35,767 bases of DNA from Candidatus Kapaibacterium sp. (lineage in GTDB: Bacteria; Bacteroidota; Ignavibacteria; Kapaibacteriales; UBA4661): assembly GCA_025363605.1 (NCBI GenBank), contig JANYDO010000079.1:1-35767 (forward strand). The letters are read 5' to 3'. Positions within the stretch are counted from its first letter, which is position 1; each line of letters starts with the position of its first letter. The notes beneath the pieces are model-generated. The model saw only the letters and a list, made by a program, of their open reading frames with translations, had not been told where the DNA came from and searched no databases. Shown here in pieces: positions 113 to 29,468 of this stretch. Made by a program: the position numbers and the translations under genes.

Positions 113-3100
113 CTAGCGAATAATATTCAAATGTTCACCGATGCTGCTGCTACGTGTGCGGACAACAACTCTAAACGCACCACTAGGTACATTTCGTACG
201 TCGGCGTGGAGAAGATAATCTCCCGCTTCACGCCATTCCTTCGCAAGCGTCTGTACGACTTCACCACTTGCGGTGAGAAGCATTATTTCTACGTCGCCCG
301 CCTCTGCAAGCGTATAGCCAATTTTTACATCGCCACTCGCCGGATTCGGGATGACCGCAATAGTACCGCTCTTTGCGGCTCCTATCAGCCTCGCCCCTCC
401 TGCTCTCGACACAAGGGTCGTGAACTTAACCGCCGTGTCGGGTTTCTCCGGCTCTTCCACTATTACCGCCTTTTCAAATGGTAAAATCTCCAACGCAGGT
501 TTACCCCACTGCGCACCTATTACCATCGCACGAGTATTCACTCGCTCGCCAGCGACAGCCCGACATTCTATCGTTGCTAGTATTATTGATCGGCTCTCCC
601 AGCGCGTCTGCACTTCGACCACCGCTCTGGTACTGCCACTGCTCCGCAACTGACGACCGCCACTGACCAATGCCAATACCTGCGGGTCAAAACTCACCTG
701 CGCACGAATATCCGGCTGCGCTGCTTTGTAAAGCGAATCCATATTACCCTCTTGGATATACACATCCAGCAGCACGCGGCTTCCGGGCGGTACACTATCC
801 TGACGCGGCTTCACGCCAATCGTCACAAATGGATTATTCGGGTTCACCGCACGAACTTGCGCTTGGACGGATACCGATGCAGAGTCAGCGCCACCTTTCG
901 TACTCCAGAGCACTTGTATTTGCGCACGTAAGTCTGCTTCTTTCGGCGAGGTACAACGCACCGTCACATTCACCGTATCATTGGGCAGCAACGTGATTGC
1001 GCTCAAAGCATCAAGAGTAAAGCGCTTCACATCTTCGCGCGATGCTTCCGAACTATTGGTGGGCAAGAGACGAAGCCCCGTGAGCGCAACCGTGTCACGA
1101 CTCACATTAATCATCCGCAGCCACTGCAAAGCCGTTCGACGTAAACGCACCGCCGGAAAGACGACCCCGTCCACGCGCAAAGCGCCACCTCTACCGCGCA
1201 AGGCATTCTCAAACCGTACCTGCCTCTGCGCCTGCTGCCCGTCCTTGTACCACACCTGCACACTTGCTAACGCTTCGCCCGCTTCACTCGGCGTGAAACT
1301 CACATTTATCGGAACTTCCTCGTTCGATTGCATCACCACATTCCGCGTCTGATTCGTCAGCGAAAATACCTCCCTGTTCGTTACCGCCGTCGCCGAATCC
1401 AGCGTTATCGCGCTCAATCCCACATTCACCAGCACACCATCGCCCCTGCGCTGTGTACCTATCAATGCCCGCCCCGCATCTATCGTGCTAAAGCCGACAT
1501 CCACACCCAACGGAACCACACGAAAACTTCGCGTCTCCGATGGTATGCCCTCGCTGCCTACCGCCAGCGCACGGACTCGCCAGTAATACTGTCCGCCGCG
1601 CTCTAATGCGCCATCGCTCGACTCCAAACGGTACGATTGCTCACTACTTCCCGCAAGTACATTTACCGTCCGGCGAAGAACCACATCCCGTACTTGTGCA
1701 TCCCGTCCGATGGTGAGTTCGTACTGCTCCGCGCCCTCAACACCGCTCCACTTCAAGCGCGGGCGAACAGCGATATTTTCTGCCTGCACCGGCGGAAACA
1801 GCAACTCCGGCGCGTCCAACGTCTGGTCTGCGCCCGTTACTACCAGCTTGTACGAACGTGAGAACAGCGTCAACTCTGGCAACAAACTATTCGTTGCGCG
1901 GCACACATACACTCCACTTTGAAATGCCTTCGCACTTTCCAACACCAACGTTGCCGATGTCGCGCCCCCTAGCACTCGTCCGTTGCGAAGCCATTCGTAC
2001 ACCGTTTTGTCTCCACCTATCCCCGATGGTATCACCAAGCGACTGCTCACCCGCACCACCGTGTCACCGCCACTGCCGATGCTGTCTTGAGGCGTGTAGA
2101 AAAAGGAGACTCGCATTCCAAGATTCGGCTCCAAACTCCCAAACTCCACTCTATTACTATCCACTCGAAGCGTATCAATCCGTAACAGCTTCGGCAAACC
2201 CGTCAGACCGTTGCTTCCTGCTTTCAATACCCGCAAACGCGAAGCACTCTGCAGTACCTCCGGCAAACGACCGCTAAAATTGTTATGCTCCACATTCAGC
2301 GTGGATAGCAGTGTTGGCGTCAACGGCGGAATTGTACCCATAAAACCATTATACCCAACATTGAGCACCTGAAGCGAGTCCCAATTCACGATGCTGCTCG
2401 GCAGTATGCCCGAAAGACGATTGTTGCTCACGTTCAACTGCTGCAACGCACTCATTCCGCCCCATTCCGCCGGAATACCGCCCGTCAGCTCATTCGCACT
2501 CACATCCAGCACACGCAGCGTTGGTGCGCTTTGCACACGTACCGTCCGCTTTACCGTACCGCCTTCCGGGGTACCAAACTCTGGAGGTAAGTTACCCGTG
2601 AGTTTATTATTGTTTACCATCAATTCCTTCAAACTCACCATCCCGCCCAATTCCTTCGGTACACCGCCCGTGAAGCGGTTCTGCGATAAGTTCAGTGTCC
2701 GTACCTTGTCCAGCGTGGCGATACACACCGGTATCAAGCCTTCCAACCTGTTCCCACTCACATCCAATACCTGTAAATTCTTGTACGAACAAAATAGCTC
2801 CGATGCGAGTCCACCCGTCAGACTATTCCCGCTCAAATTCAGACGTTCCAACTTCTTGAACTGTACCAGATTCTGCGGTATGCCGCCCGTTAAGCCCGTG
2901 TTCGATAAATCAAAGCTCCGAAGCTCCGAAAGTGGAGCAAGTGCCCCAATAAACGGTGCCAGCGTCAAATTTAACGGACGACCATGCGCACTAATACTCG
3001 TCACCCGATTATCCGTCTGCTCGATGACAACATCCCTCAAGGTAAGACCCGCCAAGCGCAATGCTCGTTCCAACGCTTCGGTGTCTCCTGCCAACGACGA

Positions 3101-6100
3101 GGCAAAGATGAACGGCTGCAACGAAACCGTCGCACCCATGGGACTCAACAGCGTGATGCCGCCTTGAGAACTTGACGTTACTTGCGCTCCAAGAGTAATC
3201 GTCATTTGCGTGGAAGAATTAATCACAAAACTTCCCACCGGTACGCCACCAACCAGTGCATCGGTCACTCGCGTAAAGTTCACTCCCGACACCACCACCA
3301 TCGTTCCGGCAGCACCCGTTGTTGGGCTGAAGCTCAGAATCACCGGTTGTCCGCTTGCTAATGCCGCGTTCACGATGGCTGCCGTCGTGACGATACCACC
3401 CAATGATGTGAAACTTAGCACACCCGATGCCGGAAGACGAATACCCAAAACATCCACCGACGGCACTCGCACAAACACTTGACCATTGACCAAGCGGAAC
3501 GAGGCGATTGCGCCACCGATACTCGCACTGCTTATCAAATCCAGATTATCGCCACGAACCACAATTTCCTCTCCTGCTGCCGCATCGCTTGGCGAGACAC
3601 TGGTCGCTATCGGTACGCCCACCACCGTAAACATATCGGCAACCACCGTCCGATTAAATGCGCCCAGTGCATCCACCGTCACCAGTGCCGAACTCAGGCT
3701 GGCATTGGTACTTCGCAGCAAGCCCGTGCTTGGCACAAGTACCGTCATCTCTGCCGATGATGACAGAATATAGCTCGCTTTGGTGCTACTAATGCTTGTG
3801 CGCAAGGTCAGTTCTTGGATTAACTCCAGATTTGCACCCGTCACGCGCACACGTCCGCCGACTGGGACAATTTTCGACCGTGCCTCGCTCACTACCACCA
3901 AACGCAACGGGTCAACACCACCACCCGAACCACCGTTCGGGAAGGGACTATACACAAATTGCGTAGCAGAAGTCACCGTGCCAGCGCCTGTGCGAACCGT
4001 CAGATAGACCATATTCGTCACCGCAGCCGTCAACGTACCGAATTTATCGTTGCCAGACGCAAGCAACGGTGCAACCTGCGGAGGAACAACCACGCTCAAG
4101 CGACTATTGCTATTGACCGTTACTGCCTGCGCAAAGACATTACCAAAGCGCACCGTTGTTCCCGGCATGAAGTTTTGTCCTAGTATAGTAACAACAGCGC
4201 CCGTTGAGGAAACTGCGGGACTAAAACTGGTCAAGACTGGCGCAGCAACTAATGTCAAAGCGGCGGTGGAAATAACCGTTCCGCCGGGCGTACTCAGAAT
4301 AATCGTCGAAGTCGTTGCTGTGAGCGGTATCTGCGCAGTAAAACTGCCATCGGGATTTGCTGTAATACCATTCTGCGGAACCGTCACGCCGCCGATTTGC
4401 AAACTGTTCAGACCGCCAAGATTGCTACCACTTATCGTAATGACCGTGCCGACTCCCGCAGGATTAGGAAACACTCCACCGACAACCGGCGCGGGAATAA
4501 ACGTGAAACTCGAATCCGATGCCGCGCCGCCCAATGGACTGCCTACCTGCACCGGCCCCGTTGACACCGCTCCAACGACAACACTGATAGTCGTCGAAGA
4601 AAGAACCGTAAACCGCGATACAGCAACGCCGCCGATAGCAACCGCATTCACACCCGTTAAATTGGTGCCCGTTATCAGCATCACCGTTCCTTCACCACCA
4701 ACGCTTGGTGTAAAGCCCGTGATGCGTGGACTCCCCTGAAGTGTGCCGACGATGGAATAAAACCGCGTGGCGCTATTGCTTACACCATCGCTTAAAAGCG
4801 ATAATCCTTGTGATAAATTACTCAACGTGCCACCAACGCTCGTGTATAAGCCTGTTTGCGTCAGAGAACTTGCCAGCGTGTTCATCGAGGTAATGCCGCC
4901 ACGCAGCACACCAACCCGTGCGCCTGTGAATGCTCCGCTCACACCTGTCAAGCGCCAATACTCACTGGTACTGAGCGCACCCGGCACTCCAAGCGCAGGA
5001 GTTCCGCCCGCTCCCACCGCAAACGCTTCGGCGCTCACCTGCGGCGCAACCGTTCCCGTCGTCGCTTCGGTTAGCGTCAGCGGAAGATAGGTAATTCCGC
5101 GCCCTATCGGGTAAAATATCGGCAGCGTCGTTGGCGGGGTGAGATTCGGAAGAAGTTGACGCGCAAGCGCTCCCGAGACAAAGGATAGTGCATTACCGCC
5201 TACTAACGCCGTATCAGCGCTGCTTTGGAGAATGATACTCGCGCCACCGGGAACGCTGACATTACCGCCGAATAAGCCCAACTGCTGCGTTATCTGCATT
5301 GTGCCGGCAAGCGTGAGAGGCAAACCGCCACGGTTCATCGTCAAGCGTGCAAGCGCAGGAATACCGATGCTACCTGCAATACTGCCCGCACCATCCACTA
5401 TCAGAGTATCCGTCGAATCACTCACAAAATTGCTGCTTGTGAAGGTCAGTGCGCCGCTCAGACGAAGGCGGTCAGCTACGCCGAAGGTCAAGGCGCTACC
5501 TGTCATGCTCAAACTTCCCACCATCGCTTTGCTATTATTTAAGCGAATTGTGCTGTTATTAACCACAAGACTGGCAGGAAATTGAGGAGAAAACTCAACA
5601 TCACTTACTGTCCGATTGCTTGCGGCATTGTACTCCAGCGTTGCCGTCGGTGCGAGATATTGCACGCCGCTTGGCGCACTCACACTACCTGTTCCTTGGA
5701 GCCTCAAGCGTCCGCCGGCGTTAATACGGAATAGTCCATTACTATTGACATTAATACCACTAGGAACTGTAAGAATTCCGCCGGATTCAACTTGTAGCGT
5801 TGTTCCACTTCCAAAGTTTGTGGAGTTTGCAAACTGTGCGTTCACTCCAGAAGGAACATAGAAAATAAACCCCGACGTTGTAAAATTTGCAGGACTGGAG
5901 CCGCCTCCGCCAATCTGTGAATTCCAGCTTGTGGTAAGGTCGGCATTACCGGAAACGTAGTAAAAGATACTCGGCGCAGGACCGGCAATAGAAAAGTGCA
6001 GCGATGAACCTGAAGCTAAACCGATAGACGATGGTGGGTTACAGGTGATAATATTTGGTGTCCCGGGTGTGATAGTACTTGGGACTGTTGGTACAAGAGG

Positions 6101-10117: not shown

Positions 10118-10171
10118 AAAAGAACCTTCAAAGCAAAAGAGAGCAAAAGTTTGTAGAGAGGATGTTAATTG

Positions 10172-10198
10172 CAAAGATATCGCAGCAAGATACGATAT
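10172..10198 (-). promoter_or_regulatory. Promoter candidate with overlapping dyad, copy 1 gene
   Basis: On the minus strand TATCTTTG (10172-10179) matches the Bacteroidota -7 consensus TAnnTTTG exactly and lies 54 bases before the start codon at 10117. No good -33 TTTG is found at the usual distance. A dyad ATATCG-N10-CGATAT (10177-10198) overlaps the element and the adjacent spacer, the position expected of an operator. Both calls are by pattern only. Confidence 0.4.
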
Positions 10199-10270
10199 TC
10201 CATAGATAAGCCCAACGGTTTTGGGGTGAAATGACAACTGGGAGGGGCGAGTTGCAAATTCATCACCATA

Positions 10271-10312
10271 AAAAAACCACTCGTGCGGGAGCTATCTCCG
10301 CAGAGTGGTTTT
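10271..10312 (-). terminator. Strong rho-independent terminator after copy 2 gene
   Basis: A long stem pairs AAAACCACTC with GAGTGGTTTT, continues inside as TGCGG(G)AG/CTCCGCA after a single mismatch, and closes on a CTAT loop. Read on the minus strand it is followed by a run of seven T residues. It lies about 70 bases past the stop codon of the minus-strand gene ending at 10384 and upstream of the next gene's promoter candidate, so it should separate the two transcripts. The U-run on the plus strand is weaker. Confidence 0.9.
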
Positions 10313-10383
10313 ATTTGATTTGCAACTATTTTTCACAACATTTTGTGAGCAAAAACTGCGCACAAAAACAGCATGAAATCGTC

Positions 10384-13300
10384 TTATCGTCGTACTTGCA
10401 CACGCTCGGTCAAAATCGCCGCCGGAGTACGCAAAATGACAAAGTACGTCCCCGTCGGAAGGTCGTTGACCGGCACAGAAGCAACGTATTCGCCTTTCGC
10501 ATGGTCGCTGTCGGCAATAATCTTCATCACTCTTCCGAAAACATCCACAAGCACCAACTGGGCGAATGTTTGCTCTTGAATGGAATAGGTGATTTGCCCC
10601 ACATCCGGCACCGGATTCGGCTGCATCGCGCTCAGAGTAGCACTCGTAGTAGCTCGCGCTATGAGCCGTGTTCCGCCTGCCCGCGAGACCTTCGCCGCAA
10701 AACTTCCGGCACGCAATTCTTCTACAAATATCAAGCGTTCGCCCTTAAATGGCGTGGGAACAACCGTTGTGGGCAGGGAATCAACACCAAAACGGAAGTA
10801 TTCCAGTTCAACGGCTGTTTGGGTCGTCTCACCCGCCACTGCTCTGCATGGAAAACGCACTATGACACTATCGCGCAGAAGTGCCGTAATATCACGAACA
10901 TTAATGGTAGCGAATGTGACGCTCACACGCTGAAGGCTATTCGACGGATCTGCATTGGAAAGTGCTTGAAGCGGCGGAGCAATTGCTCCCAGTGCCAGCA
11001 CTTGCCTGTGAAAGCGAATAATGGTGCTGTAGGAAAGCGGAAGATTTTGCACAAGATTATCAAGGCTGATATTGCTCCCGGTCACGTTGGCAATATACAA
11101 CTCCATCGTCAACGACGTGCCGGGCGGCAGTGATTCTTGCCCACGCGCGGGGCGAACGCCAACGGTAATACCAATATCCCTGCCACTCCGCTCATTTCGT
11201 GCAAATGCTTTCACTCGCGCGGTGAGCGTATCGAAATAGACCGTTTCGCCTTGCGAGGTGGTCTGTATGAATCGAGCGAAATACTGGAGGGTTGCCGTAA
11301 TACTGCCTTCATTCATAGGAGTACAGGTCACAATCACTGACGAGGATGCCCCTGAGTTGATGTACAAAGGGCTACGAATGCTATCAACGGCAAAACCATT
11401 GGCATTACCGATAATCTTTGCACCCGTGATAATCACTCGCGTCGAAACGCCGCCACGATTGCCGACATAGGCAATGGTTTGGGCAGTCTTACCGACACGA
11501 ATAGTATCGAAGTTCACGTCTTCTGCTTTAATGGGCGTTCCACGCCCCACGAGCACATTTTCCAAACGAACGCTACTGGTGTCGCCGGTGGGGAGAATAT
11601 ACTTTACTGTCACGGCAGCCGACTTCGTGCCGGGACTGCGAGGCGCAAAGGTAATACCGCGAATGGAAAATGTCTGCCCTGCTCGCAAGCGCAAGCCGCG
11701 CACATCGAGCGGAATTCTAAAGCTAAATTCATTATCGTTACCATCCACATCCTGAATCGTGAGGTCTTGGTCGGTAAGATTCGTCAAAAAGGCAAAATCC
11801 GAAACGGATTCACCTAAGACCACATTGCCAAAATTGACCGAACTGACGGCAACAGCACTGCCGGGCGGCGCTGTCACAAAACTGTTTAAGACCGACCACG
11901 CACTGGCAATGTTCACACCGTTTAACGCCCTGACACGCCAATAATACAGCGTAAGCGGCTGTAAGCCCTCCAGACGTGCATTGATGGTCGTCAACGTCGT
12001 ATCGGCAGAGCGCACCGATGCGGTGGTGGCAAGAAGCGAGAAATCGCGGAGCTGCGAGACCTGCACTTCGTAGAGAATCGCATTGTCCACGCGCGTCCAT
12101 TGCATCGTGGGATTGAACGCAATGAAATTCGCACCGTTTTGGGGAAACACAAGGTCGGGCGCTTGGCTTGGCGGGCGAGGCTCCACCGCATGGACACGAA
12201 TCGGACGAGAATAGAGCGTAAGTTTATCTACGAAGCGATTGGTAATCGCACAGACGTAAGAACCGGTATCTTGCGGCATGAACTGCTCAACCCGATAGCC
12301 AATCGTCCCCGACGTAGCACTAACTCGCACACCATTCTTCAGCCATTCGTATTGATTATCACGTCCCGATACAGCAATAGCCAGAAGCATCGGATTACCG
12401 ATAACGACACCAGTATCTCGCACTGCGCCGAGGCTGTCTTGGGGAACGTAGGTAAAATCCGTAACAGCAGCATTCGTCAGTAAATCCCCGAATTGAAGAT
12501 TATTGCCCTGCACCGCCAGTGCCGAAAGAATAGCACTCATGCGGGGCAGAGAGGTGAAGCGATTGTAGGACAGCCCCAACGTTTGCAGATTACGAAGCGC
12601 ACCAAGCTGCGCCGGCACTGTCCCGCTAAAACCATTACTGTCCAAATACAACGTTTGCAAAGAATCCAGATTGCCAAGCGTTCCGGGAACAATTCCCGAA
12701 AATGCATTATTCCGCAGGGACAAGAAGCGTAAACGGCGAAGATTGCCCAGATCGGAAGAAACAACACCCGAAAAGCTATTCCGACCAATGTCCAACGTCT
12801 GTAAATTCGGCAATGCAGGCAGTATGCGCATGATGCTTTCACCCGTCAACTGATTATTTTCAATAAGAAATTCTTCCAGTTGTGTAAGCGAACGGAATGT
12901 TTCCGGCACTTCACCTGTGAGTTTATTCCCCCCAAGCCAAAGGCGGCGAAGCGCGTTTGCGGCGGTCAAGCGCTGTTGATTAGTATTTTTAGAAGAAGCG
13001 TTTGCCGCCACAACGACCGTTGCGACGGTTGCATTACCCAGCGACTCAGGAATCGTGCCTGTGAGTTGATTACGGTGCAAATAGAGTGATTGCAATGCAT
13101 TGGCATTACCAAGTTCCGGCGGAATAGTGCCGATAAACGCATTTTGCCCCAAATCCAAACTCTGTAATTGTGGCAAACTGCCCAGACAAGGCGGTATCGT
13201 ACCGCTGAGTCCGTTTTGGTTCACGTTAATTTCTCGCCCATTGGTCATAGAACAGAGCGATTGCGGCAGCACACCCGACAGACGATTACGGTCAGCAATC

Positions 13301-16300
13301 AGAACACGCAACTTCGGCAATACGCCAATACTGTCCGGTAGAGCGCCCGTAAACTGGTTTCCTCCCAAACGCACCTCTTCCAGCGTTTTGACCGATGGAA
13401 TCCATTGTGGAAATACCCCCGTAACGCCGTTATCCGTGAGATCCAGAATACGCAACGCCGTGAGTTCGCTCACAATTTCGGGTAGCTGCCCGCGAAGATT
13501 GTTGTCCGGCAGCCGTATTTGCGTAACGCGCCCACCCTCAACCGTAACGCCTGTCCATTCAGAAACAGGGTCAGCAGAGAGCCAGCGATTGGTGGCGCTA
13601 TTCGTCCAAGCTGCGCCACCTAAACTATCGTAGAGAACACGCAAAATCGAGGATTCATATTCAATACGGGATAACACCTTTAGCTCCTGCTGAGACTGCG
13701 CTGTGCCTCGCGCTCCTGTTATTCGGATAACTCCCGTCGAACCTGCGCCCACGACTGCCGTCAGAACGGAATCAGAAAGTACCGAAAAGCTGGTGGCAGG
13801 AGTATTACCAAAAACAACAGCCGTCGTGCCGTTAAAATTCCCACCGCGCAAGGTAACTGTTGCACCGGAAACGGCAAAACTGGGCGTAAAACCGATAATG
13901 TAGGGTGAAGGGATAATCGTCATGCGCAGTGTGGAAGTGGTCGAGCCACCAAGCGTCGTGATACTCATCGTGCCACTGGTGTTCAGACGCGAGACCCGCA
14001 CAAGCAGCTCTGTCGGCGAAACACTTTGGACAATATCTGCTCGCCCACCGCCGATGGTAACTTGTTGTACGCCCGTCAGAAACTGCCCCCGCACTTGTAC
14101 GATTGAGCCGAAGGTCGCACTGAGTGGTGTAATGGAGGTAATAACAGGCGGTACGGATGTCACAATAAACGATGTGGTCGTCGTTGCTGTTCCTAAGGTA
14201 CTCGTAACAAAAATTGCCCCTCGCGTGGTACGAGGCGGCAATGCCCCCACGACAGCGAATATTTGCGTCGTCGAGACAAGCGTTACGCTCGTAGCATTTG
14301 TTCCGGCGATACTAACCACGACATCACTGGAAAAACCACGACCAGCAATGCCGATAAGCGAACCGGCAGTACCGAGAATCGGGCTAACGTCTGTGATTGC
14401 TAGCGCAGGCTGCACCTCGAAGCGAGTGCTAGCCGTCGTTGTACCGCCGGGCGTGACAATGCGTAGATTCGACGTTGTTGATCCCAGAAGCGGCAGGCGA
14501 ATGGTCATTTCGGTTGAGGACAAGACCGAGACAATGGCAGTGCTAACGTTTCCAATCGTTGCCTGAGTTGCATAGAGCAAATCGCGCCCGCGCACAAGCA
14601 GCGTCGAACCTGCAACCGCGCTGGATACGGGTTGCCCATTAAAGAATATTCCCGTGATATTGGGTTGCGGAGAATAAAAGAATATGGTTGCCGTCGTTGC
14701 CTCGCCTCCGGGTGTACGCAGAACGATTGTTCCCGTCGAACCGCCCAATATGGCAACACTGACCTGCGTGGGGTAATTGACCGTTATTGATTGTACGGGA
14801 GTACCACCGATAAGAACACTGCTGGTTTGTAAGAGATTTGTGCCGGTAATAGTGATAACCGAGCCACGACTGCCGATACTTGGTGTGAAACTTGTGATGG
14901 TCGGAGGAAAGAAAAACGAAAAACTATCGGTCGTAGTGGCTACCCCGCCAAGCGTTCCCAAGCGAATAGCCCCCGAAACATCACGGTTCGGGCAGCGAAC
15001 CTGTACTAAAGTGTCATTGCGCGTCACAATCGGTATCACCTCCCCGCCAAACGTCACCGATGCGGTCGAGGAAAGATTACGTCCGCGTATAGTAACCAGC
15101 GTATTAAAACCACCGTTCAAAGGAGTAATCAAGGCAATACGCGGCGGTGGCGCATAGACAAATGTGGAGGGCGAAAAGGCAGTGCCGCCGATAGTGACGA
15201 CGCTCACCGCACCCGTCGAGCCATTATTGACCGTTGCGCGAATAACAGTCGGTGCGACGATTTCAAAACTTTGTGCAGGCGTGCCACCGAAAAACACCTG
15301 CGTTGTCGTAGAAAGATTCAATCCGACAATCGTTGCAACAGTAGAATTTCCGCCTGTCGTCGGCGTAACGCTCGTAATCAAAGGAAGCGGTGTAGCATTG
15401 CCGACAGCAAAAAATGATGGTCCCACAGCACCGACGACAAAAATGTTACTCCGCAAGACTGTTCCGGTAAAAGCGCTACTAATCATGGAGAATGTGGCAT
15501 TCGTGGCATTGGCTCCGGCAAAAACAGAACTTGAAACAAAGAAAGGAGCCGTAGTACGAGCTGCAGTCAGAACAATTTGGGAATAATCTCCCGCAAGTGC
15601 AGGTTGCACCTGCCAGTAGCTATTGCTCAAAGAAGCCAAACCGATTCCGAGCGTTCCTGTTACCAGCCCAGTCATTGCCTCTACGATAATGCCCGGATTA
15701 CCTGCACCCGTTGTAGCATCGGAAATATTAACCGGAAGATAATTACCTAGTTTTCCGACGGGAAAGAAGAACAGCGATGTACCATTTTGATTTGCCCCTA
15801 CACGCCGAAGCATTTGCCCCAACACAAAGGATGCCGCCGAGCCGCCCTGCACGGCACTCAAAGAGGGTGTTTCGATACGAACTTGCGGAGCAGACAGATA
15901 CCCCTGCTGGAGAGAAAGAAGTGTCGTCAAGGAAAGCGTCACGGCACTGGTCAGTGTTGCGCCGGGACGATTCAGGGTAAGGCTTGCAAGATTATTTGCC
16001 CCGCCCTGCCAGAGAAATTCTCCCGTGATAGTGCCTGTGCCGCCAAGCGTGATACTTGCGCCCCCGGGACCGGAATTATCCTGAAACTGCGAACCGGCAA
16101 TAAAGGTGATGTTTCCATTCCACGTCAGCGAACCGGCTTTAATGTCAATAATGCCCGTCGAATTTGCGGTAAATGAGCCATTTTGCGAAAGCGCAAAGCC
16201 CGTACAGTCCAGCGTACCTGACACTATCAAGGAACCGTTAATTGTTTTGGCACTACTGAGTTGCAGCGTTGTGTTCAGAACAATCTGCACATCTCCCGGC

Positions 16301-17145: not shown

Positions 17146-17195
17146 CGTGGTAGGAGAAAAAATGAAACAGAAGCAAGATAAAAGTTATAAATGAA

Positions 17196-17226
17196 AACAG
17201 ATAATGGTACACAAGTGAGTGACAAA
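17196..17226 (-). promoter_or_regulatory. Bacteroidota-type promoter candidate, copy 2 gene
   Basis: Minus strand: TTTG (17223-17226), exactly 19 bases, then TATCTGTT (17196-17203), against the consensus TTTG-N19-TAnnTTTG. The -7 box has two mismatches in its TTTG half. It ends 51 bases before the start codon at 17145. The -33 box lies in the arm of an inverted repeat. Confidence 0.4.
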
Positions 17227-17299
17227 AGCAAAGGCAAAACGGGACAATCGTCATACAATGACGAATACATCACGCCTACACGAGCCTTTGCCTATTGTC
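17221..17299. repeat. Nested inverted repeat between copies 2 and 3
   Basis: Outer arms are 17221-17235 and 17284-17299: GACAA plus GCAAAGGC on one side pairs with GCCTTTGC plus TTGTC on the other, 13 matched pairs with a small internal bulge. Inside the 48-base loop a second perfect stem pairs TCGTCAT with ATGACGA around a 3-base loop (17248-17264). Neither stem is followed by a T-run, so this is not a classic terminator. It could be a structured RNA end for the upstream gene, a regulator site (it overlaps the promoter candidate), or a small palindromic element. Confidence 0.55.
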
Positions 17300-17397
17300 A
17301 GCTTTTCTATTATCCGGCTATCGCCTTTTCATCCCCAAAAACCATACCATTTTTACCAACGCCTGAACGCCGAAGGGAAAAATCATCTACGGAAGAG

Positions 17398-20300
17398 CTA
17401 TCGTATCACCTGCAATCGTTCCGTTATTACCTCACTCCGTGGGGTCTTCATCCGCACCAGATAGGAACCGCTTGCCAGATGGGATGTTTCTAAGCGCAGC
17501 GAGTGCGTTCCGGCATCGTAGTATGCCCCATCGGAAACCATCACGGTCATACCTTGCAGCGTCAACACTTCAAAGTTACATATTCCCGCCGCCAGCACGA
17601 TAAAAGTCAATTCAACCGAGTTGTCGGAAGGATTCGGACTGAGGGCAAGCACACTGCTTGTCGTACTCGCAATCAAGCGCTTGCCGCCTGCACGTGAGGT
17701 GCCGGAGGTAAAGGGTGCAAATGCAACAGTGTCTGCACTGAGGTAGCGTACCGTTACTTGAGAAATCTCGCCCGTGTTCGTTGCTACCGAAGAGGTATCC
17801 CATTTGAAATTATTTTCTACTTTTAGCACTGTTGCATCCGTACTTCCTGCTACAACGCGGCATCGAATCCGCATCAGAATCGGTTCCAACTGTTTTTTTT
17901 CATCATTGGGGAGCCAGCGAGTGGGCGGTATGGTGTACGTGACGAAGTCTCCATTGGAGAGACCAGCTCGCACAACGCCATCTTCCGCCAGTGGTATCAG
18001 CACTTGCCTATTCAGCGTAATCGCACCCGTAAATACCGGATTCCCCACTTTGTAGAGTTGGGTTAAGGTATCAGGAAACGTCTTTTTGGTCTGATAATCA
18101 ATTCTTGCCAGCCGAAGAGCCAGCGATACGATGCCGCCCGGTGCCACGTAATTCTGTTCTGCTGTGAGAACCGGGACAATGGTTACGTCGTTAGAATCCG
18201 GTTTGCGAACACGCACTACCATCGGTACAGACAATGTGTCGGCAATCGTGGAGGAGCCAATGGCAGAATTTACCTGAACGGCAAAACGCAGCGCTCCGCG
18301 TATCGTCGCAGGCGTGGGGTCGCTTGTCAGCGCACAATTGACATTCACAAAAGCACTTTCATTCGGCTTCAACGAAATCGGCTTGATAAACAGGTCGCTC
18401 AGTCCGAAGCGAGCTTTGCTGCTATTCTCTGAACTTGCTCCAACGCTTGTAGCGATTGTCAACTCCATACTCGTCACATTCGTGAGCTGTATGCTTTCTG
18501 TTTTGGTCAATCCTGCGGTCAATAATCCAAAATCTACTTCCGCGCCGTTCAAAACAAGCGCCCCTCCCGCACCCGAAAGCACACTGGCAAACGACAATTC
18601 CGTCGGAACATTACTACCGGATGATGCCACCGTGTAGCCCACCACCACTGATGCCGTCTGCTCACCAACACTTGTGGGTGTGAAGCGCACGTTCACAACA
18701 ACCGTGCTATCCGGCTCCAAACGAACGGCACTCGTAAGACCGCCTGACTGGAATTGTCCTTGCGGTTGCGTGCTTTGCTCCTGAAGGCGTACACTTTGGA
18801 TAATCACTGCCACACTGCTTAAATTCTGCACAGTAATTGTACGCTCTACCGTTTTGCGAAGAATCACACGACCGAAACTGACGGTTTCTACGTTCACCGT
18901 GCGTCCGGCGGGAATTGTGGTAAATCGCCCCACCTCCGACCATGTGCCCGGCAAACCCTCACTCAACGCCCGCACTCGCCAGAAGTATGTGGTCAGATTC
19001 TCCAGTGCTTGTGTGAGCGCAAGGCGTGCGCGGAAGGGGTCATTGACAGTTTGCCGCACAATCATATCGGAAAAATCACTTTTGCTAGAGACTTCGACCT
19101 CGTAACTACTGGTAAACGCCGTAGTAGACCAAACAAGTGTCGGCGTGATGCTGATGCTCTGCGCTGCCAGTTGCGGTGTGATAAGGCTTGGACGGTCGGA
19201 AGGCGCTTGCGGAGGCAATGCACGAAGCGAGAGGACACGCCGAATAAGCGTCAGCTGCGTAGCATTGCGATTACGAATGTAACACGTGTATTCGCCAGTG
19301 TCCGACCGCGCAACGCGGTCAAGTTTAAGCAGCGAATCCGTCGCTTGGGTTAGTAATCGTGAACCTTTATACCATTGGTAATCATTGAAAAATCCACCCA
19401 CCGTACCGGAAACGCGGAATGCCGAAAACACTCGCACAACAGTATCCATGCGCTCCAGAACACTATCTTGCGGAGAATACACGGCAGCGCGGCTACTGGC
19501 TACGTTGCGTTCCAAACTTTCAAATGTCAATGCATTAAAAGCAACATTCACCGAATCCAGCGCTATACCACTTGTTCTGCGGAGCTGCGGTAGCGCTCTG
19601 AGACGATTATTTGCTAACGACAAACGTTTTAAGGCAGCGAGATTCTGCACCGAATCGCTGAGGCTTGCGAGCGCGTTACTATCCAGCCACATCGTCGTAA
19701 GTGCGCTCAAACGCCCGATTTCAAGCGGTACTGCGCCGGAAAAATTATTGGCACGAAGCGAAAGCGTTTGCAACTGTTTCATATTGCCCCAATACGTCGG
19801 CAGCACGTCCGAAAGCTGATTGCGACTGAGGTCGAGGGTTTGCAATGCGGTCAGATTGGCAAAGGATAGCGGGAGGTTACCGGTCAATCGGTTCTGCGAA
19901 AGATTTATTGTGGTGAGAGCCACGCACTGCCCCACACTTGCCGGAATGATGCCCGAAAGCCGATTGCGACTGAGGTCGAGGCGGCGCAAACCGGAGACGC
20001 TTTGCAGCGAAGGCTCTCCGTGCTTATCTCCTGAAGGAGCACGTTCGGCGAGAACAACCGTGGCCTGCGTACCGAGCGTTTGTGGAATCGCACCCGTGAG
20101 CTGATTGCCGGAAAGCACAAGTTCGCGCAGTGCCGTCATAGAGCCAATCGAGACGGGAATACTATCGCTCAAAAGGTTTTCACTCAGATTAAAAATCTCT
20201 ACTCGTTTCAAATCACCGACACAGCTCGGAATAGCACCCGAAAAACCGTTTGAGTCCAGACGTACTTCGCGCAGATTCGGTAAATTGCACAGCCCGCGCG

Positions 20301-23300
20301 GCACATCACCCACAAAGCGGTTATTACCCAAATCCAACACCTGCAAACTCGCCAACGTCGAGAGCGCAGGCACTGCACCCGTGAACTGATTACCGCGCAA
20401 ATTCAGCGTTTCCAGCGCCTTCAGCGTTGCAATCGAACTCGGTAGCGTTCCGCTTAGTTGATTGCCGGACAAATCCAACACTTTGAGTGCGGGAAGTTCT
20501 GCCAAGAGCGACGGCAGCGAACCTTGCAGACCATTATTTGCCAGCACAAGACGTGTCACCTGACCATTTTCAACCGTCACGCCTGCCCATGAGGAAACGG
20601 GCATTTCGGTAAGCCAATTTCGCTCGTTCACCCACGCACCGCCAGCCGTCAGAGCATACACACGCGCCAAGACGCTCGAATCACGCTCAATGGGCGTAAG
20701 TCCGGCTCCACCACTGGAAGGCGCAACAAAACGAAAGACTGCAACCGATGTAGCCACACCGTTGGGCGTGGTGATACGCACCGAACCCGTTGTAGCGCCT
20801 TGTGGGACAATCGCGGCAATGAGCGTCGGCGAAATCACGCGGAACGATGCCGCCGTCACGCCTCCGAACTGCACCAAGCCCGTTGTTGATAAATTTTGCC
20901 CCGAAACAAAGACCTCTGCACCCGCTTCACCGCTTGGCGGCGTAAAGGAAAGAATGCTGGGCGGCGGACCAAGCGAAACAATGACCGTGAAAGGCGAACC
21001 GCTTACTGTCTGACCTTGCTGCGTGAGCACCCGCACCGTGCCGGAAGTCGCTTGTGCGCTCAATGTCGCCACAATCCGCGTATCGCTTGCCACACTAAAA
21101 CTCGCTACGGGTACACCACCAACACTCACACTCGTTACGTTTACAAACTCTGCGCCCGTAATTTCCACACTTGCGCCCGTAGCACCCGACGTAGGGGAAA
21201 AATTTGTAATTGTGGGTGGTAACAAGAAGCGGAAATCTTGAGTAGAGCGAACAGTGCCTCCGGCTGCAATAACGTCAACTTTCCCACTTGCACCGCCCGC
21301 AGAAACCTTTGCCCGTACAAGCGACAGCGAGATGCTTTGCAGGCTGTCAGCTTTCGTGCCGCCAAAGCTCACACCGGTCACGCCCACAAGGTTCGCTCCC
21401 GTTACCAGTACCCACGCCCCTGCTCCGCCGGAGGGCGTGAAGGACGTAATCTGCGGCGGCAGCACATATTGAAAAATTGCTTTCGATGTGTCGCGTCCGC
21501 CGAGTGCAGAAATGACGATGGCGCTTGTGCTGTTCTGCATTTGGAGCGGCATAGTGAAGCTCACTGCTGTTGTGGAAAGCGTCATAAAACCACCAATGTT
21601 TACACTGCCAAATCGAAGCGTATCGACATTCACAAAATTCCGCCCCACCAAGCGCACCACTGTATTTGCACCGCCGACCGCAGGAATGATACTGTCAATT
21701 TTCGGTGCAGGAATAAAGGTAAACGCTGTTGGCGAAACAGCACTGCCGGAGGGCATGAAAACAGAAATTCGCCCCGAAAGCGGCACGGTGTCGAGCGTGA
21801 TGCGCAGTTCTGCGGGCGAAATCAACGAAGCAACACCATTGGAACCGTTAAGGTACGTCGCACCAACAAAAGCAGAATCTATCGGCTGAAAGTCTGTGCC
21901 ACGCACCGTAATCACCGTCCTTGCGCCGCCTTGCGCGGGGCTAATACTTGTGATATTAGGCGCTCCGAAGAACGAAAACGTTGTCACTGAAGCGGCAGTA
22001 CCGCCCGCGTTCTGCACCGTTACTATGCCGCTTGCGCCATTACCGACATCCGCCAGCAGCTGAGTCGGCGAGAGAATGGTAACGTTGGCAGCAGTAACGC
22101 CGCCAAAGCTCACCGTGACGGGGCTAATAAAATTCTGTCCGGTAATAGTGATGACGCTTCCCGGGAAGCCGCTTACGGGCGTAAAGTTGGTAATTTGCGG
22201 TGGCGGTACAATCGTGAAATTCTGCGGAGCAGTCGCCACGCCGCCGGGCGTTGTCACTGTGACGGATCCGGTTATTGCACCGGGCGCTACCGTCGCACGA
22301 ATTTGGGTAGGAGAGTCAACAATGACATTTTGCGCAGCCACGCCACCAATACTCACCGTCGAACCCGCAAGGAAACTTGCTCCGGTAATCGTTATTTGCG
22401 TTCCCACACCGCCCGCCGTCGGTGCAAACGCAACCACCAAAGGCGCTCCGGCACTGGTGCTGATAGTGACCGTGAGCGAAGTAGCAATCATGGGTGCTCC
22501 GGCGGAACGGAAGAGCGTAATCACCGCCTGCGTCGTGCCTCCGGCAAGCGGCGGATTCGACCAATTCACGACCATATTCGGAACGGAATTATTGGCTTGA
22601 TTCAAAAACGATGTTGTATATGCGCACGAAAGCTGTGCCGTACCGCCTGCTGCCGGAGCAATGGCAAGATTCAGCGTTGCTTCATTCGCATCCGGCAAGC
22701 CTGTGCGCTGTGAGAAGATTCCCCATCGCATCGTAAAGGGCGCTCCGGCGTTGATAATGTTCGGCAGTCCAAATGTGCCGGTACTTGATGTTTGACTAAA
22801 GGCAAGAGTAAGAGGCTGTATCAAACACGCCACATTTTTACTGTCCGTGTAACCGAAGGCATCTTGTAACTGAAGAGAATACGTAGCATTGGTGAGCAAT
22901 AAAACACTTGGATTGGTCGTGTTAGTCGGAGCAATATTCGTGAGCGGTGTCCATCCCAGCGTCAGAGGGCTTGTGCCGCCGCGAATCGATGCAGTCGTAA
23001 TTTGCGTGGGTTTATTAAAGCGAACAAATTGCGTTTCCGCCAAAATACTGGGACGAAAGCGTATTTCCACCGTTGCCGACGAAGAATTCATACCATCAGT
23101 GACGCTATACGTGAAAAAATCGGCATCATCCAGATTCACAGCACGATTGGGCGCGTACTGAAGATTTCCTACCGCATCCAGACTCACTGTCGCCATCGTC
23201 GAACCGCCGTTTGCGCCCGTCAGCGAGAACGTCATCGGATTGCCGCCAACTTTGGTTGCCGGCAGAATCGCCGTTGCCACGCCGCTGACATCAACGTTTC

Positions 23301-26300
23301 CGGCAACTTTGAGCGAATTATCTACCCACTGCGGCGGTGTGGGCTGTCCAACACCAGTAAGGGAAACAGGATTGTTGAAGCCCGATAAATCCGCCGATTG
23401 GAGTGGAAAACCTTCGTTAAAACGCCAGTAACCGCGCAGATTCGCAGCGTTAGGATGAGTGTTTTGCAACTCGCGCCCACGCCAATCGGCAATGGTTGTC
23501 TGCGGCAGCGCCGTATTCCAAAGCCGCACCTCGTCTATTGCTCCACGCCAAAAGTCATTTGTGCCGCCATTGGAGCCAATGTGCAAGCGCCCACCCGTGC
23601 CGGAGCCAAGAGCAAGATTATCCACCGCAGCCAAGCGTCCGTCAATATAGTACGTGATAGTACCGCCGGAATAGATGACGGCAAGGTGATATTGGACATT
23701 GCGGCGAAAGGCATTGACAGCGGTCGTCTTCTGGCTTAGACCATTGGTAAACCGAACGCTGGCGAGAAAGTTTCCCAAATGCACGCTGAATTTCATTCCG
23801 GCGGTATTCCCGCCATCGCCAATGGAGAATAAGCAGGGGTCGTTCCCGACCGTTCCTGCTGCCCAGGAAGGACGCACGAGCGCTTCGACGGTGAACGTTG
23901 TCAGCGAGTCATAACTGGGGTGCGAGGCGGCAAATACTTCTTGATTCAATGTTCCCGTCGAACTCCCGTAGAACACCTGCCAGCCAAAACCGGCTTTGGG
24001 CGGAAGAGACATCGTTCCGGGGGTAATGTAGCGCTGTGTACCCGATGACAGTGGAGTAGAAACAGGATCGCTCATCAGTCCATTTGTTACCGCTGTTCCT
24101 CCGACCGAAGTATACGTTCCAACCGGCATAGTAGGGGCAGCAACATTCTCCATCAACCCAAGACCACTTGTACCCGAAAAGCCACCAACGCGAAACACTC
24201 CTATTTGCGCTTGGTTCATTGGTCCAGTACCAGCAATAACACCGCACCTCCAATACTCCGATGTGCTCAGTTGCGTGAGCGGTGCAAGCGGTGTGCCACC
24301 GCTACCCGAAGAATAGGCTTCTGCCGCAAGAATTGTTCCTCCGGCAACATTCACGTTTTGGAAAAGCATCGGTAGATATACGCCACTTTTGCCTAGTGGG
24401 TATAAATATGCTCCTGCTCCACTGGCTAGAGTGCGTTGAAGTGGTCCCTCCACATATGCTGCTCCGGTATTAGCAAAGGTAACAGAATTGGGTGCTGTGC
24501 TGAGAATACGCAGTATGCAGTTTGCTCCCTGCCCAGCTTGAATAATGCCACTAGTAATAGAAAGCGTTGCGGCGGTAGCAAGATCAATACGCATTGCAGA
24601 TGTACCGGGTAGCAATACTTTTGAGCCAATGGGCTTATTCACTTGAAAATTTGCAAAAAAGACCGGCGGTGAAGCTGAATTGGGTATTTCGGCATCTGTC
24701 ACTTGATGATTGTTTGCTCCCGTAAAAAGGAGATTTGAGCCACTAAGGTAACTTATCACCGTTCCACCAATTGCATATCCTGTACCATCCAACTGGAGCG
24801 TCCCCCCGCTTAATATTTGTAGTGGTGCTGGTTTGCTTAGACTCACCCCATCCATCACCTTCAATACACCATTCGTATTCACTTGCACTCCGCCAGCGTC
24901 AATACGACTATTTCCATTGAGTGCAAGTGTGAAAGGTCCTGTGGTGAGTATTCCTGTCAATGCAGCACTCACCGAACCGACCGTTACAGCACCCATCACC
25001 GATGTGGACGCACCAAGATTGACAGCGCTACTATTAAAAATCAGAACACTTCCCGGCATATTTGCAGGAAGCTCCTGAAGAGTAGTGGTCTTAATTCCAG
25101 TACCCACATACCTCAGGGTTGCGGTTGTAGCCAAATAATTGATTGCGCTTGCACCTTGGACTGTTGAAAGATTTGCAGTGGTACTCATGAGGATGCATGA
25201 TCCGCCACCGACAACATTCAGCGTACCATTATTGGTCAAGGTAACATTGGGATTTAATTGCAAGACCGCACCGTTATTCACATTCATTGTTGTACCGCTT
25301 GTGGTGGTATAATACGTCGCCCCCGAACCGGCTAACAGCAAACGCCCGCCCGCATTCACATTCCACGTACCTTGATTAAGCAAAAAACTTCCATTGACGG
25401 TAAGGGTGCCCGCAACACCATTGACCGTGCTACCGGGCTTATTGACGAGAATCGTGCCATTCATCGGACCACCGCCGGAAACTTCCTGACCGTCAATCAT
25501 GAAAGTGTTTGAGCCGATATATTCAAGTGTATCGTTGGGTCCGCCATATTGGATAAGAGCACCACCATTTAATAGTGGGGAGCCATCAATCTGCACTTTA
25601 CCGCCCGAGTTCACATTCAAATTTGCATTAATAGTAAATGTTCGGGCAGTTTTTACCAGCCATATTCCTTGCATTGTGGTGGCAGTTGTCAATGTAGTTC
25701 CGCTTACGTTATCAATTGTTACCATTACCCCACTCGGAATAGTCGGCGGACATTCCTTCCCTATACTACAGGCAGGTGTGGAAAAATACGTCAACTTGGA
25801 GCCCGATTGATAAAAGGGAGTAAACGTTGCCGGGGCATACAGTGGAGCGCCTTGAATTTCCAATTCACCACCAGTGAGAATGGCAAAACCTGCACCGGCA
25901 TTATTAACAGCATTATTATTAAAAAATTTATGCTGATTTTTTATTGAAAACCTTCCGCTCTGAACAAAGAGATTTGAGCCATTTGCAAGGGTAGATTGTC
26001 CGTTTATTCCTGCGTTTACTGAAACAGTGGAAATGACGTTAATGATAAGTTTTGAACCGCCCGCAGAGATAGTTAACCCGCTCAAAATATCCATTCCAAA
26101 ATTCCCTGTGAACGTAGTTATGGATGCACCGCTCACGAGAATACTATTCACACCAATACCAACCGTAAGAGTAACCGTGGGATTGCCGCTCCCGGCATCA
26201 AAAGAGATAATATCGCCCGCTCCGGGAACAGATGCACCACTTACATTACCGGACGTAGCACTCCAATTATTTGTGCTGTTCCAAAGACCATCTCCGCCTG

Positions 26301-26442
26301 TCACCCAAAATCTGTTCGCAGCATGACCTTCGGCACACAAGAGCAAAATAGCGCTGGTGACCAATACAAAACAACGCATTGTGAGCGCGAGACTCAAGCG
26401 AGAGCGCAACGCCTTAGAGACACAGTAACGATGCGTATTCAT
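17398..26442 (-). CDS. Giant T9SS-exported LamG/TIG/LRR surface protein, copy 3
   Basis: Predicted secreted or surface-anchored protein of 3014 residues. The ATG at 26442 is chosen because GGGGG lies 8 bases upstream and it opens a basic n-region plus hydrophobic core ending near CAEGHA; a TTG five codons earlier and an ATG at 26379 are alternatives. Parts in order: beta-solenoid-like region (about 30-650); the EYWR module (657-814); a laminin G/concanavalin-like domain with YYIDG and AIDEVRLWN (837-1000), unique to this copy; a VCBS/cadherin-like stretch (1034-1127); a PKD/SprB-like part; seven TIG repeats (1334-1907); LRR N-cap and plant-type LRRs (1917-2290); Ig-like (2320-2410); Fn3-like (2414-2512); HYDIN-like domains (2514-2744); a divergent cohesin-like domain (2747-2900); SRAGGKRLI linker; T9SS sorting domain (2930-3014, SPNP to LQVIR). 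The LamG domain suggests glycan binding, which is inference. No strong terminator follows. Confidence 0.9.
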   Translation of the reverse strand: MNTHRYCVSKALRSRLSLALTMRCFVLVTSAILLLCAEGHAANRFWVTGGDGLWNSTNNWSATSGNVSGASVPGAGDIISFDAGSGNPTVTLTVGIGVNSILVSGASITTFTGNFGMDILSGLTISAGGSKLIINVISTVSVNAGINGQSTLANGSNLFVQSGRFSIKNQHKFFNNNAVNNAGAGFAILTGGELEIQGAPLYAPATFTPFYQSGSKLTYFSTPACSIGKECPPTIPSGVMVTIDNVSGTTLTTATTMQGIWLVKTARTFTINANLNVNSGGKVQIDGSPLLNGGALIQYGGPNDTLEYIGSNTFMIDGQEVSGGGPMNGTILVNKPGSTVNGVAGTLTVNGSFLLNQGTWNVNAGGRLLLAGSGATYYTTTSGTTMNVNNGAVLQLNPNVTLTNNGTLNVVGGGSCILMSTTANLSTVQGASAINYLATTATLRYVGTGIKTTTLQELPANMPGSVLIFNSSAVNLGASTSVMGAVTVGSVSAALTGILTTGPFTLALNGNSRIDAGGVQVNTNGVLKVMDGVSLSKPAPLQILSGGTLQLDGTGYAIGGTVISYLSGSNLLFTGANNHQVTDAEIPNSASPPVFFANFQVNKPIGSKVLLPGTSAMRIDLATAATLSITSGIIQAGQGANCILRILSTAPNSVTFANTGAAYVEGPLQRTLASGAGAYLYPLGKSGVYLPMLFQNVNVAGGTILAAEAYSSGSGGTPLAPLTQLSTSEYWRCGVIAGTGPMNQAQIGVFRVGGFSGTSGLGLMENVAAPTMPVGTYTSVGGTAVTNGLMSDPVSTPLSSGTQRYITPGTMSLPPKAGFGWQVFYGSSTGTLNQEVFAASHPSYDSLTTFTVEALVRPSWAAGTVGNDPCLFSIGDGGNTAGMKFSVHLGNFLASVRFTNGLSQKTTAVNAFRRNVQYHLAVIYSGGTITYYIDGRLAAVDNLALGSGTGGRLHIGSNGGTNDFWRGAIDEVRLWNTALPQTTIADWRGRELQNTHPNAANLRGYWRFNEGFPLQSADLSGFNNPVSLTGVGQPTPPQWVDNSLKVAGNVDVSGVATAILPATKVGGNPMTFSLTGANGGSTMATVSLDAVGNLQYAPNRAVNLDDADFFTYSVTDGMNSSSATVEIRFRPSILAETQFVRFNKPTQITTASIRGGTSPLTLGWTPLTNIAPTNTTNPSVLLLTNATYSLQLQDAFGYTDSKNVACLIQPLTLAFSQTSSTGTFGLPNIINAGAPFTMRWGIFSQRTGLPDANEATLNLAIAPAAGGTAQLSCAYTTSFLNQANNSVPNMVVNWSNPPLAGGTTQAVITLFRSAGAPMIATSLTVTISTSAGAPLVVAFAPTAGGVGTQITITGASFLAGSTVSIGGVAAQNVIVDSPTQIRATVAPGAITGSVTVTTPGGVATAPQNFTIVPPPQITNFTPVSGFPGSVITITGQNFISPVTVSFGGVTAANVTILSPTQLLADVGNGASGIVTVQNAGGTAASVTTFSFFGAPNITSISPAQGGARTVITVRGTDFQPIDSAFVGATYLNGSNGVASLISPAELRITLDTVPLSGRISVFMPSGSAVSPTAFTFIPAPKIDSIIPAVGGANTVVRLVGRNFVNVDTLRFGSVNIGGFMTLSTTAVSFTMPLQMQNSTSAIVISALGGRDTSKAIFQYVLPPQITSFTPSGGAGAWVLVTGANLVGVTGVSFGGTKADSLQSISLSLVRAKVSAGGASGKVDVIAAGGTVRSTQDFRFLLPPTITNFSPTSGATGASVEITGAEFVNVTSVSVGGVPVASFSVASDTRIVATLSAQATSGTVRVLTQQGQTVSGSPFTVIVSLGPPPSILSFTPPSGEAGAEVFVSGQNLSTTGLVQFGGVTAASFRVISPTLIAAIVPQGATTGSVRITTPNGVATSVAVFRFVAPSSGGAGLTPIERDSSVLARVYALTAGGAWVNERNWLTEMPVSSWAGVTVENGQVTRLVLANNGLQGSLPSLLAELPALKVLDLSGNQLSGTLPSSIATLKALETLNLRGNQFTGAVPALSTLASLQVLDLGNNRFVGDVPRGLCNLPNLREVRLDSNGFSGAIPSCVGDLKRVEIFNLSENLLSDSIPVSIGSMTALRELVLSGNQLTGAIPQTLGTQATVVLAERAPSGDKHGEPSLQSVSGLRRLDLSRNRLSGIIPASVGQCVALTTINLSQNRLTGNLPLSFANLTALQTLDLSRNQLSDVLPTYWGNMKQLQTLSLRANNFSGAVPLEIGRLSALTTMWLDSNALASLSDSVQNLAALKRLSLANNRLRALPQLRRTSGIALDSVNVAFNALTFESLERNVASSRAAVYSPQDSVLERMDTVVRVFSAFRVSGTVGGFFNDYQWYKGSRLLTQATDSLLKLDRVARSDTGEYTCYIRNRNATQLTLIRRVLSLRALPPQAPSDRPSLITPQLAAQSISITPTLVWSTTAFTSSYEVEVSSKSDFSDMIVRQTVNDPFRARLALTQALENLTTYFWRVRALSEGLPGTWSEVGRFTTIPAGRTVNVETVSFGRVILRKTVERTITVQNLSSVAVIIQSVRLQEQSTQPQGQFQSGGLTSAVRLEPDSTVVVNVRFTPTSVGEQTASVVVGYTVASSGSNVPTELSFASVLSGAGGALVLNGAEVDFGLLTAGLTKTESIQLTNVTSMELTIATSVGASSENSSKARFGLSDLFIKPISLKPNESAFVNVNCALTSDPTPATIRGALRFAVQVNSAIGSSTIADTLSVPMVVRVRKPDSNDVTIVPVLTAEQNYVAPGGIVSLALRLARIDYQTKKTFPDTLTQLYKVGNPVFTGAITLNRQVLIPLAEDGVVRAGLSNGDFVTYTIPPTRWLPNDEKKQLEPILMRIRCRVVAGSTDATVLKVENNFKWDTSSVATNTGEISQVTVRYLSADTVAFAPFTSGTSRAGGKRLIASTTSSVLALSPNPSDNSVELTFIVLAAGICNFEVLTLQGMTVMVSDGAYYDAGTHSLRLETSHLASGSYLVRMKTPRSEVITERLQVIR

Positions 26443-29446: not shown

Positions 29447-29468
29447 AATCACATCTACGATTGATTAT

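Follow-up and report, generated by a model that had tools for sequence, protein, structure and literature searches.

The window, the whole stretch of 35,767 nucleotides analysed here, derives from a Candidatus Kapaibacterium genome (G000) and is filled between positions 113 and 26442 by three adjacent minus-strand open reading frames, A, B and C (Table 1), in agreement with the about 26 kb of continuous coding claimed in the first-pass annotation. Pfam and NCBIfam recover the same order in all three genes, TIG, LRR (E 1e-25 to 1e-37), Ig_3, Fn3-like, HYDIN/ASH/Cep192 and a weak Por_Secre_tail, as the annotation had proposed except for a cohesin-like segment before the junction motif. Cohesin identity of this segment was dropped, as sequence-level comparison gave no match to anything in Pfam, NCBIfam or PDB; at this level it is a beta-rich domain to which no family can be assigned. 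A profile of the part following the LRR matches PDB chains of HYDIN (E = 1.7e-24), Ig cell-adhesion proteins and contactin Fn3. Each protein has an N-terminus which, judged by eye, is hydrophobic, and a head of about 540 to 1800 aa, with Laminin_G_3 found in C alone. The terminator-like hairpin separating B and A has, on the minus strand, outer arms AAACCACTC/GAGTGGTTT followed by a T run, which suggests that the two genes are transcribed separately. A plus-strand ORF inside gene B (10231-11133) is without a Pfam match and was taken as spurious.

Table 1. Positions of genes A, B and C, their domains and the intervening hairpin in the window.
Feature	Position	Strand	Remarks
Gene A, 3334 aa	113..10117	-	ORF open to 10237, likely ATG 10117
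A head, ~1780 aa	4718..10051	-	Beta-rich, solenoid-type region; differs between species
A TIG/IPT repeats	2978..4717	-	Pfam/NCBIfam
A leucine-rich repeats	2123..2977	-	Pfam/NCBIfam
A stalk	410..2122	-	Ig, Fn3, two HYDIN-like, beta-rich domain
A motif SRAGGARL	386..409	-	Before sorting domain
A T9SS sorting domain	113..355	-	Weak Por_Secre_tail
Hairpin, terminator-like	10270..10315	-	In the B-A gap; inner stem found by scan at 10284-10302 (+)
Gene B, 2253 aa	10384..17145	-	Likely ATG 17145
B head, ~540 aa	15391..17013	-	Short stacked strands, then beta-sandwich (AF2)
B TIG repeats	13651..15390	-	Pfam/NCBIfam
B leucine-rich repeats	12451..13650	-	Pfam/NCBIfam
B stalk	10687..12450	-	Ig, Fn3, two HYDIN-like, beta-rich domain; all-beta AF2 model
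B motif SRAGGTRL	10663..10686	-	End of last folded strand/start of low-confidence linker
B T9SS sorting domain	10384..10635	-	
Gene C, 3014 aa	17398..26442	-	Likely ATG 26442
C head, ~1370 aa	22198..26316	-	Includes Laminin_G_3 (23488-23913)
C TIG repeats	20683..22197	-	Pfam/NCBIfam
C leucine-rich repeats	19468..20682	-	Pfam/NCBIfam
C stalk	17698..19467	-	Ig, Fn3, two HYDIN-like, beta-rich domain
C motif SRAGGKRL	17674..17697	-	
C T9SS sorting domain	17398..17646	-	

The last 700 residues of B are modelled by AF2 as a chain of beta-sandwiches (mean pLDDT 79), and the head of B is modelled with a mean pLDDT of 74 and low confidence in the first 160 residues. The stacked strands of this model make the beta-solenoid fold that had been ascribed to the heads likely, but a PDB fold search with the B head returned nothing significant, the best matches being tailspike and autotransporter beta-helices at an E of 0.03.

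The genome encodes T9SS machinery, PorU and SprA scoring 710 and 789 bits, both well above the cut-offs, and about 150 sorting domains. The sorting domain of B lies at the cut-offs, at 27.0 of 27 bits for PF18962 in the genome search and 23.6 versus 23 for TIGR04183, and those of A and C score below cut-off at the correct C-terminal place. Two marks of a type A T9SS cargo, a terminal sorting domain and the machinery in the same genome, are therefore present. Ahead of the sorting domain, S-x-AGG-x-RLI is invariant in ten G000 paralogues, with S alternating with C at the start of the motif across species. In the AF2 model of B the last folded strand ends with this motif, and the residues behind it, 602-626, form a low-confidence linker leading to the sorting domain. 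A genome-wide role of SRAGG as a T9SS motif was rejected, as the strict form occurs in only 2 of 16 sampled G000 sorting domains, one of which is a family member; the motif belongs to one class of tail. Forms of the type C-x-[AE]-GG-x-RL are found in the tails of T9SS proteins outside the family, in other parts of the order. The general form [CS]xxGGxRL was observed order-wide just before the sorting domain (L149, L153, L155, L158, L163, L165-L167), in tails with the beta-rich domain, with Cys in many species and Ser in most members from the genus of the window, PH2015. A second class of sorting tail was observed in the same genome, in a contig-edge T9SS protein of TIG repeats (window 33881-35767, minus strand) with a sorting domain of 37.9 bits and no AGG junction motif.

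Known T9SS cleavage sites lie in the flexible linker that connects the sorting domain to the folded domain before it, and small residues are favoured there (PMC11969387). By analogy, [CS]xxGGxRL is a candidate T9SS cleavage site, with PorU as the presumed protease. It resembles the known sites in its linker position and small residues, as at SxAGGxRL, but is a longer motif and is confined to one tail class.

The pairwise protein and DNA alignments which the annotation had called for show that the C-terminal parts of the three genes can be aligned over their whole length with 28-32% protein identity (E 1e-101 to 0), with DNA similarity absent in blastn except for one 57-base and one 21-base match. 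The similarity is therefore real but old. A tree of 51 family members, built from the last 720 residues, places A, B and C in three separate orthologous groups, each with 1:1 orthologues in sister species. The nearest paralogues of A are two further genes of a longer array, joined with A in a clade with 98% SH-aLRT, and tandem origin thus holds for those three genes, which on the evidence of the tree are an older tandem expansion. The array consists of five genes in the related genome G006, C, B and A being followed by two more family genes, so that the array extends beyond position 113. The two extra genes have counterparts in G000, on contigs C557 and C54. Over 2614 aa, the second ORF of C557 shares 83% identity with the corresponding G006 gene, which makes it very likely that the same five-gene array is found in G000, interrupted by contig ends.

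The annotation had read the triplet as duplication of a surface scaffold with diversification of its outer part, which is taken here to mean that a single gene was copied in tandem at this site in recent times and that the heads then diverged. Such an origin would fit the common strand, adjacency and identical domain order of the genes and, for A and the next two array genes, the single clade (98%), but it is most improbable for the triplet, since B and C each group with orthologues of their own in other clades, DNA similarity is limited to a 57-base match, and orthologues of A, B and C occupy three different contigs in G007, where no family gene follows B. The orthologous groups of the tree rule out A, B and C as sister copies, and duplication in place as their origin was rejected on the tree and on synteny. 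The G007 orthologue of B instead adjoins OmpA and ABC genes, and that of G002 adjoins OmpA, so that these genes are probably the ancestral neighbourhood of B; B is an old fixture beside them. In the window, 27272-29452 (minus strand) encodes an OmpA-family protein with a poly-proline linker, marked by a GGTGGC x5.8 repeat (28509-28543); its neighbour at 29868-33797 (plus strand) is a 1309-aa protein that fuses TerB-like and ABC transporter parts. In G001 the B and A orthologues are separated by approximately three ordinary ORFs (C413:5963-9319), where the window has only a short gap.

The family has at least 12 members in G000, A, B and C among them. The genome belongs to the Kapabacteriales genus PH2015; relatives that bear a name are MAGs of Candidatus Kapaibacterium and 'Ignavibacteria', and G006 is Clear-D13, of the provisional genus PH2015, assembled from a Dolichospermum enrichment (PMC7714850). 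The survey of related genomes suggested by the annotation gave 2-14 copies per species, full-length modules being identified with an Ig-to-end profile and counted by hand from the listing: 12 in G000, 12 in G006, 13 in G007, 14 in G004, 9 in G003, 8-9 in G005, at least 8 in G001 and 2 in G002, with 6-7 in G009 of a neighbouring genus. In G008, a genome of 70% completeness, the profile found no full-length module, and the genomes sampled from the order's other families gave only partial matches, HYDIN-to-end most fully. Among the sampled genomes the complete stalk is thus restricted to two genera, g1 and g3, that belong to the same family. By arithmetic from ORF lengths, the family ORFs sum to roughly 2% of the genome. 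Other members carry propellers in place of the solenoid, of the NHL (C348, C327 and C54 type) or FG-GAP (C446 and C346) kind. G002, the SKYG85 isolate, has the smallest genome of the genus here and the fewest family copies; one of its members (C208:8277-9791) has three in-frame stops and is probably a pseudogene.

Head and stalk differ in conservation. Over 49 orthologue pairs, mean identity is 53% in the head, 62% in TIG, 63% from LRR to HYDIN and 53% in the last 300 residues, the head being less conserved than LRR-to-HYDIN in 40 of the 49 pairs (p = 1e-6, a value which is only a guide as the pairs share species and are not independent). A variable N-terminal half is thus borne out, but a constant C-terminal half is only roughly right, as the last 300 residues are less conserved than LRR-to-HYDIN. 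Orthologues which never vary had been named as evidence against a diversifying head; the orthologues are indeed one-to-one, but their heads do vary. Not every member has an exchanging head, since B is almost uniform relative to its G006 orthologue, at 82-87% and down to 74% at the end. A shows a sharp step near residue 1580 in the same comparison, from 40-53% before to 79% after.

Exchange between species was assessed with SprA as the reference gene, using 100-aa windows and the difference at fourfold (synonymous) sites. The SprA tree pairs G000 with G006, G001 with G003 and G007 with G002, each at 100/100. Between G001 and G007, SprA is 66% identical with a fourfold difference of 0.53, the lowest 100-aa window being 0.38. 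In the A head the same species share 80% aa identity over residues 400-1370, including 100-aa windows at 91-94% with fourfold differences of 0.10-0.23, and return to 67% and 0.52 in the TIG part. In the tree of the A head, G001 groups with G007 (100/100), and the G000+G006+G001 clade present in the TIG tree (92/91) is rejected (p = 7e-6). In a C348-type head, windows at 97% with fourfold differences of 2/57 are observed between G007 and G003, for which SprA gives 64% and 0.53. Of 296 windows in heads, nine show such a low difference, compared with none of the 181 in TIG and none of the 225 in LRR-to-end, so that no exchange tract was found among the stalk windows; the nine arise from two loci and do not represent nine events. 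Local divergence or phylogeny of the exchanged heads disagrees with that of the remaining gene and of the genome, the disagreement by which allelic exchange is recognised. Combined, these comparisons show that homologous recombination has moved head tracts from one species to another in two orthologue groups.

Between G000 and G006, the fourfold difference of A is 0.71 in the head versus 0.54 in the rest (p = 4e-4), as expected if one species acquired a diverged head. The G000+G006 grouping is rejected over the whole A head at p = 0.046, but not in its halves (p 0.17 and 0.11). A larger region may have been transferred and eroded afterwards. In a further G000 member (L021, C446), residues 2000-2600 are 75-86% identical to G006 and 22-29% to G007 and G003, with flanks at ~60% identity; this resembles another replaced cassette, and the tract test was not positive for it.

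Two other explanations of variable heads bear on these data. The proteins could be structural scaffolds of a surface layer or sheath, in which the stalk does the work and heads vary through loose constraint, a reading suggested by their great length, all-beta repetitive make-up and faster-evolving heads, and by the finding of no enzymatic domain. This is unlikely, as the heads keep long open frames and ligand-type folds (LamG, NHL, FG-GAP), and relaxed constraint alone gives no head-confined tracts of lowered synonymous difference. Alternatively, the heads could be targets of phages or predators, exchange mainly letting cells escape recognition and adhesion being secondary. A receptor that is exposed would be expected to show exchange and divergence limited to the head, as seen here, but escape leaves the different head folds on one stalk unexplained and is considered quite improbable.

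The explanation we favour, and consider fairly probable, is that A, B and C belong to a lineage-specific family of giant adhesins displayed by the T9SS, in which the stalk is conserved while divergence and recombination diversify the head. We infer export, cleavage, surface anchoring, adhesion and a benefit of varied heads as follows. A signal peptide would secrete each protein and the C-terminal sorting domain would take it across the outer membrane, where PorU presumably cuts the linker at [SC]xAGGxRL and attaches the protein to the surface. The TIG, LRR, Ig, Fn3 and HYDIN-like domains would form a long stalk from which the N-terminal head, a solenoid, LamG, NHL or FG-GAP propeller depending on the member, may point outward and bind a surface, polysaccharide or another cell. 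The paralogues are old and have been kept as separate orthologous lines, and their heads diversify in three ways: by faster divergence, by different folds on one stalk and, as shown in two orthologue groups, by exchange of tracts between species. The first-pass suggestion of a duplicated T9SS surface scaffold with a diversifying outer part is thus upheld by the shared stalk and varied heads, although it missed the genome-wide family, the other head folds on the same stalk and the recombination of heads between species. More tentatively, and as a possibility rather than a probability, the family could be a genus-wide display platform with one stalk and anchor, an order-wide [CS]xxGGxRL junction that the T9SS sortase would recognise and cut specifically, and heads of unrelated folds whose pieces would be traded between species by recombination, each species having its own set of binding heads.

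SprB-type T9SS adhesins of gliding flavobacteria are likewise very large and repetitive, but SprB is single, has a different sorting domain and is bound to gliding motility. In Porphyromonas gingivalis, particular domains of T9SS surface proteins vary within the species as a result of rearrangement and allelic exchange (PMC5266723), and its gingipain adhesin domains and HagA resemble the present family as modular T9SS surface proteins whose domain variants form a mosaic unrelated to strain phylogeny (PMC5266723). In P. gingivalis, however, exchange involves one species and few loci, whereas here it occurs between species of an uncultured genus and the heads are on a family of up to 14 paralogues, with domains unlike those of P. 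gingivalis. Flavobacterium psychrophilum similarly has several LRR surface proteins that end in a TIGR04183 sorting domain and whose locus tags are almost consecutive; compared by description, the available part of that account describes no giant TIG/head or Ig-Fn3-HYDIN stalk in them (PMC5682007). Literature searches on Kapabacteria returned nothing with LRR and one passing mention with T9SS, and no published description of this surface-protein family was found.

At ~2% of these genomes, the family is a surface-protein family without a found description in a little-studied group of water bacteria, one member species of which was recovered from a bloom-forming Dolichospermum culture (PMC7714850). 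Its junction motif is a candidate for a sequence-specific T9SS cleavage site, in contrast to P. gingivalis, for which the available part of one source describes cleavage as sequence-independent (PMC4804311), and its heads allow recombination that is confined to heads and crosses bacterial species to be put to the test in an uncultured group.
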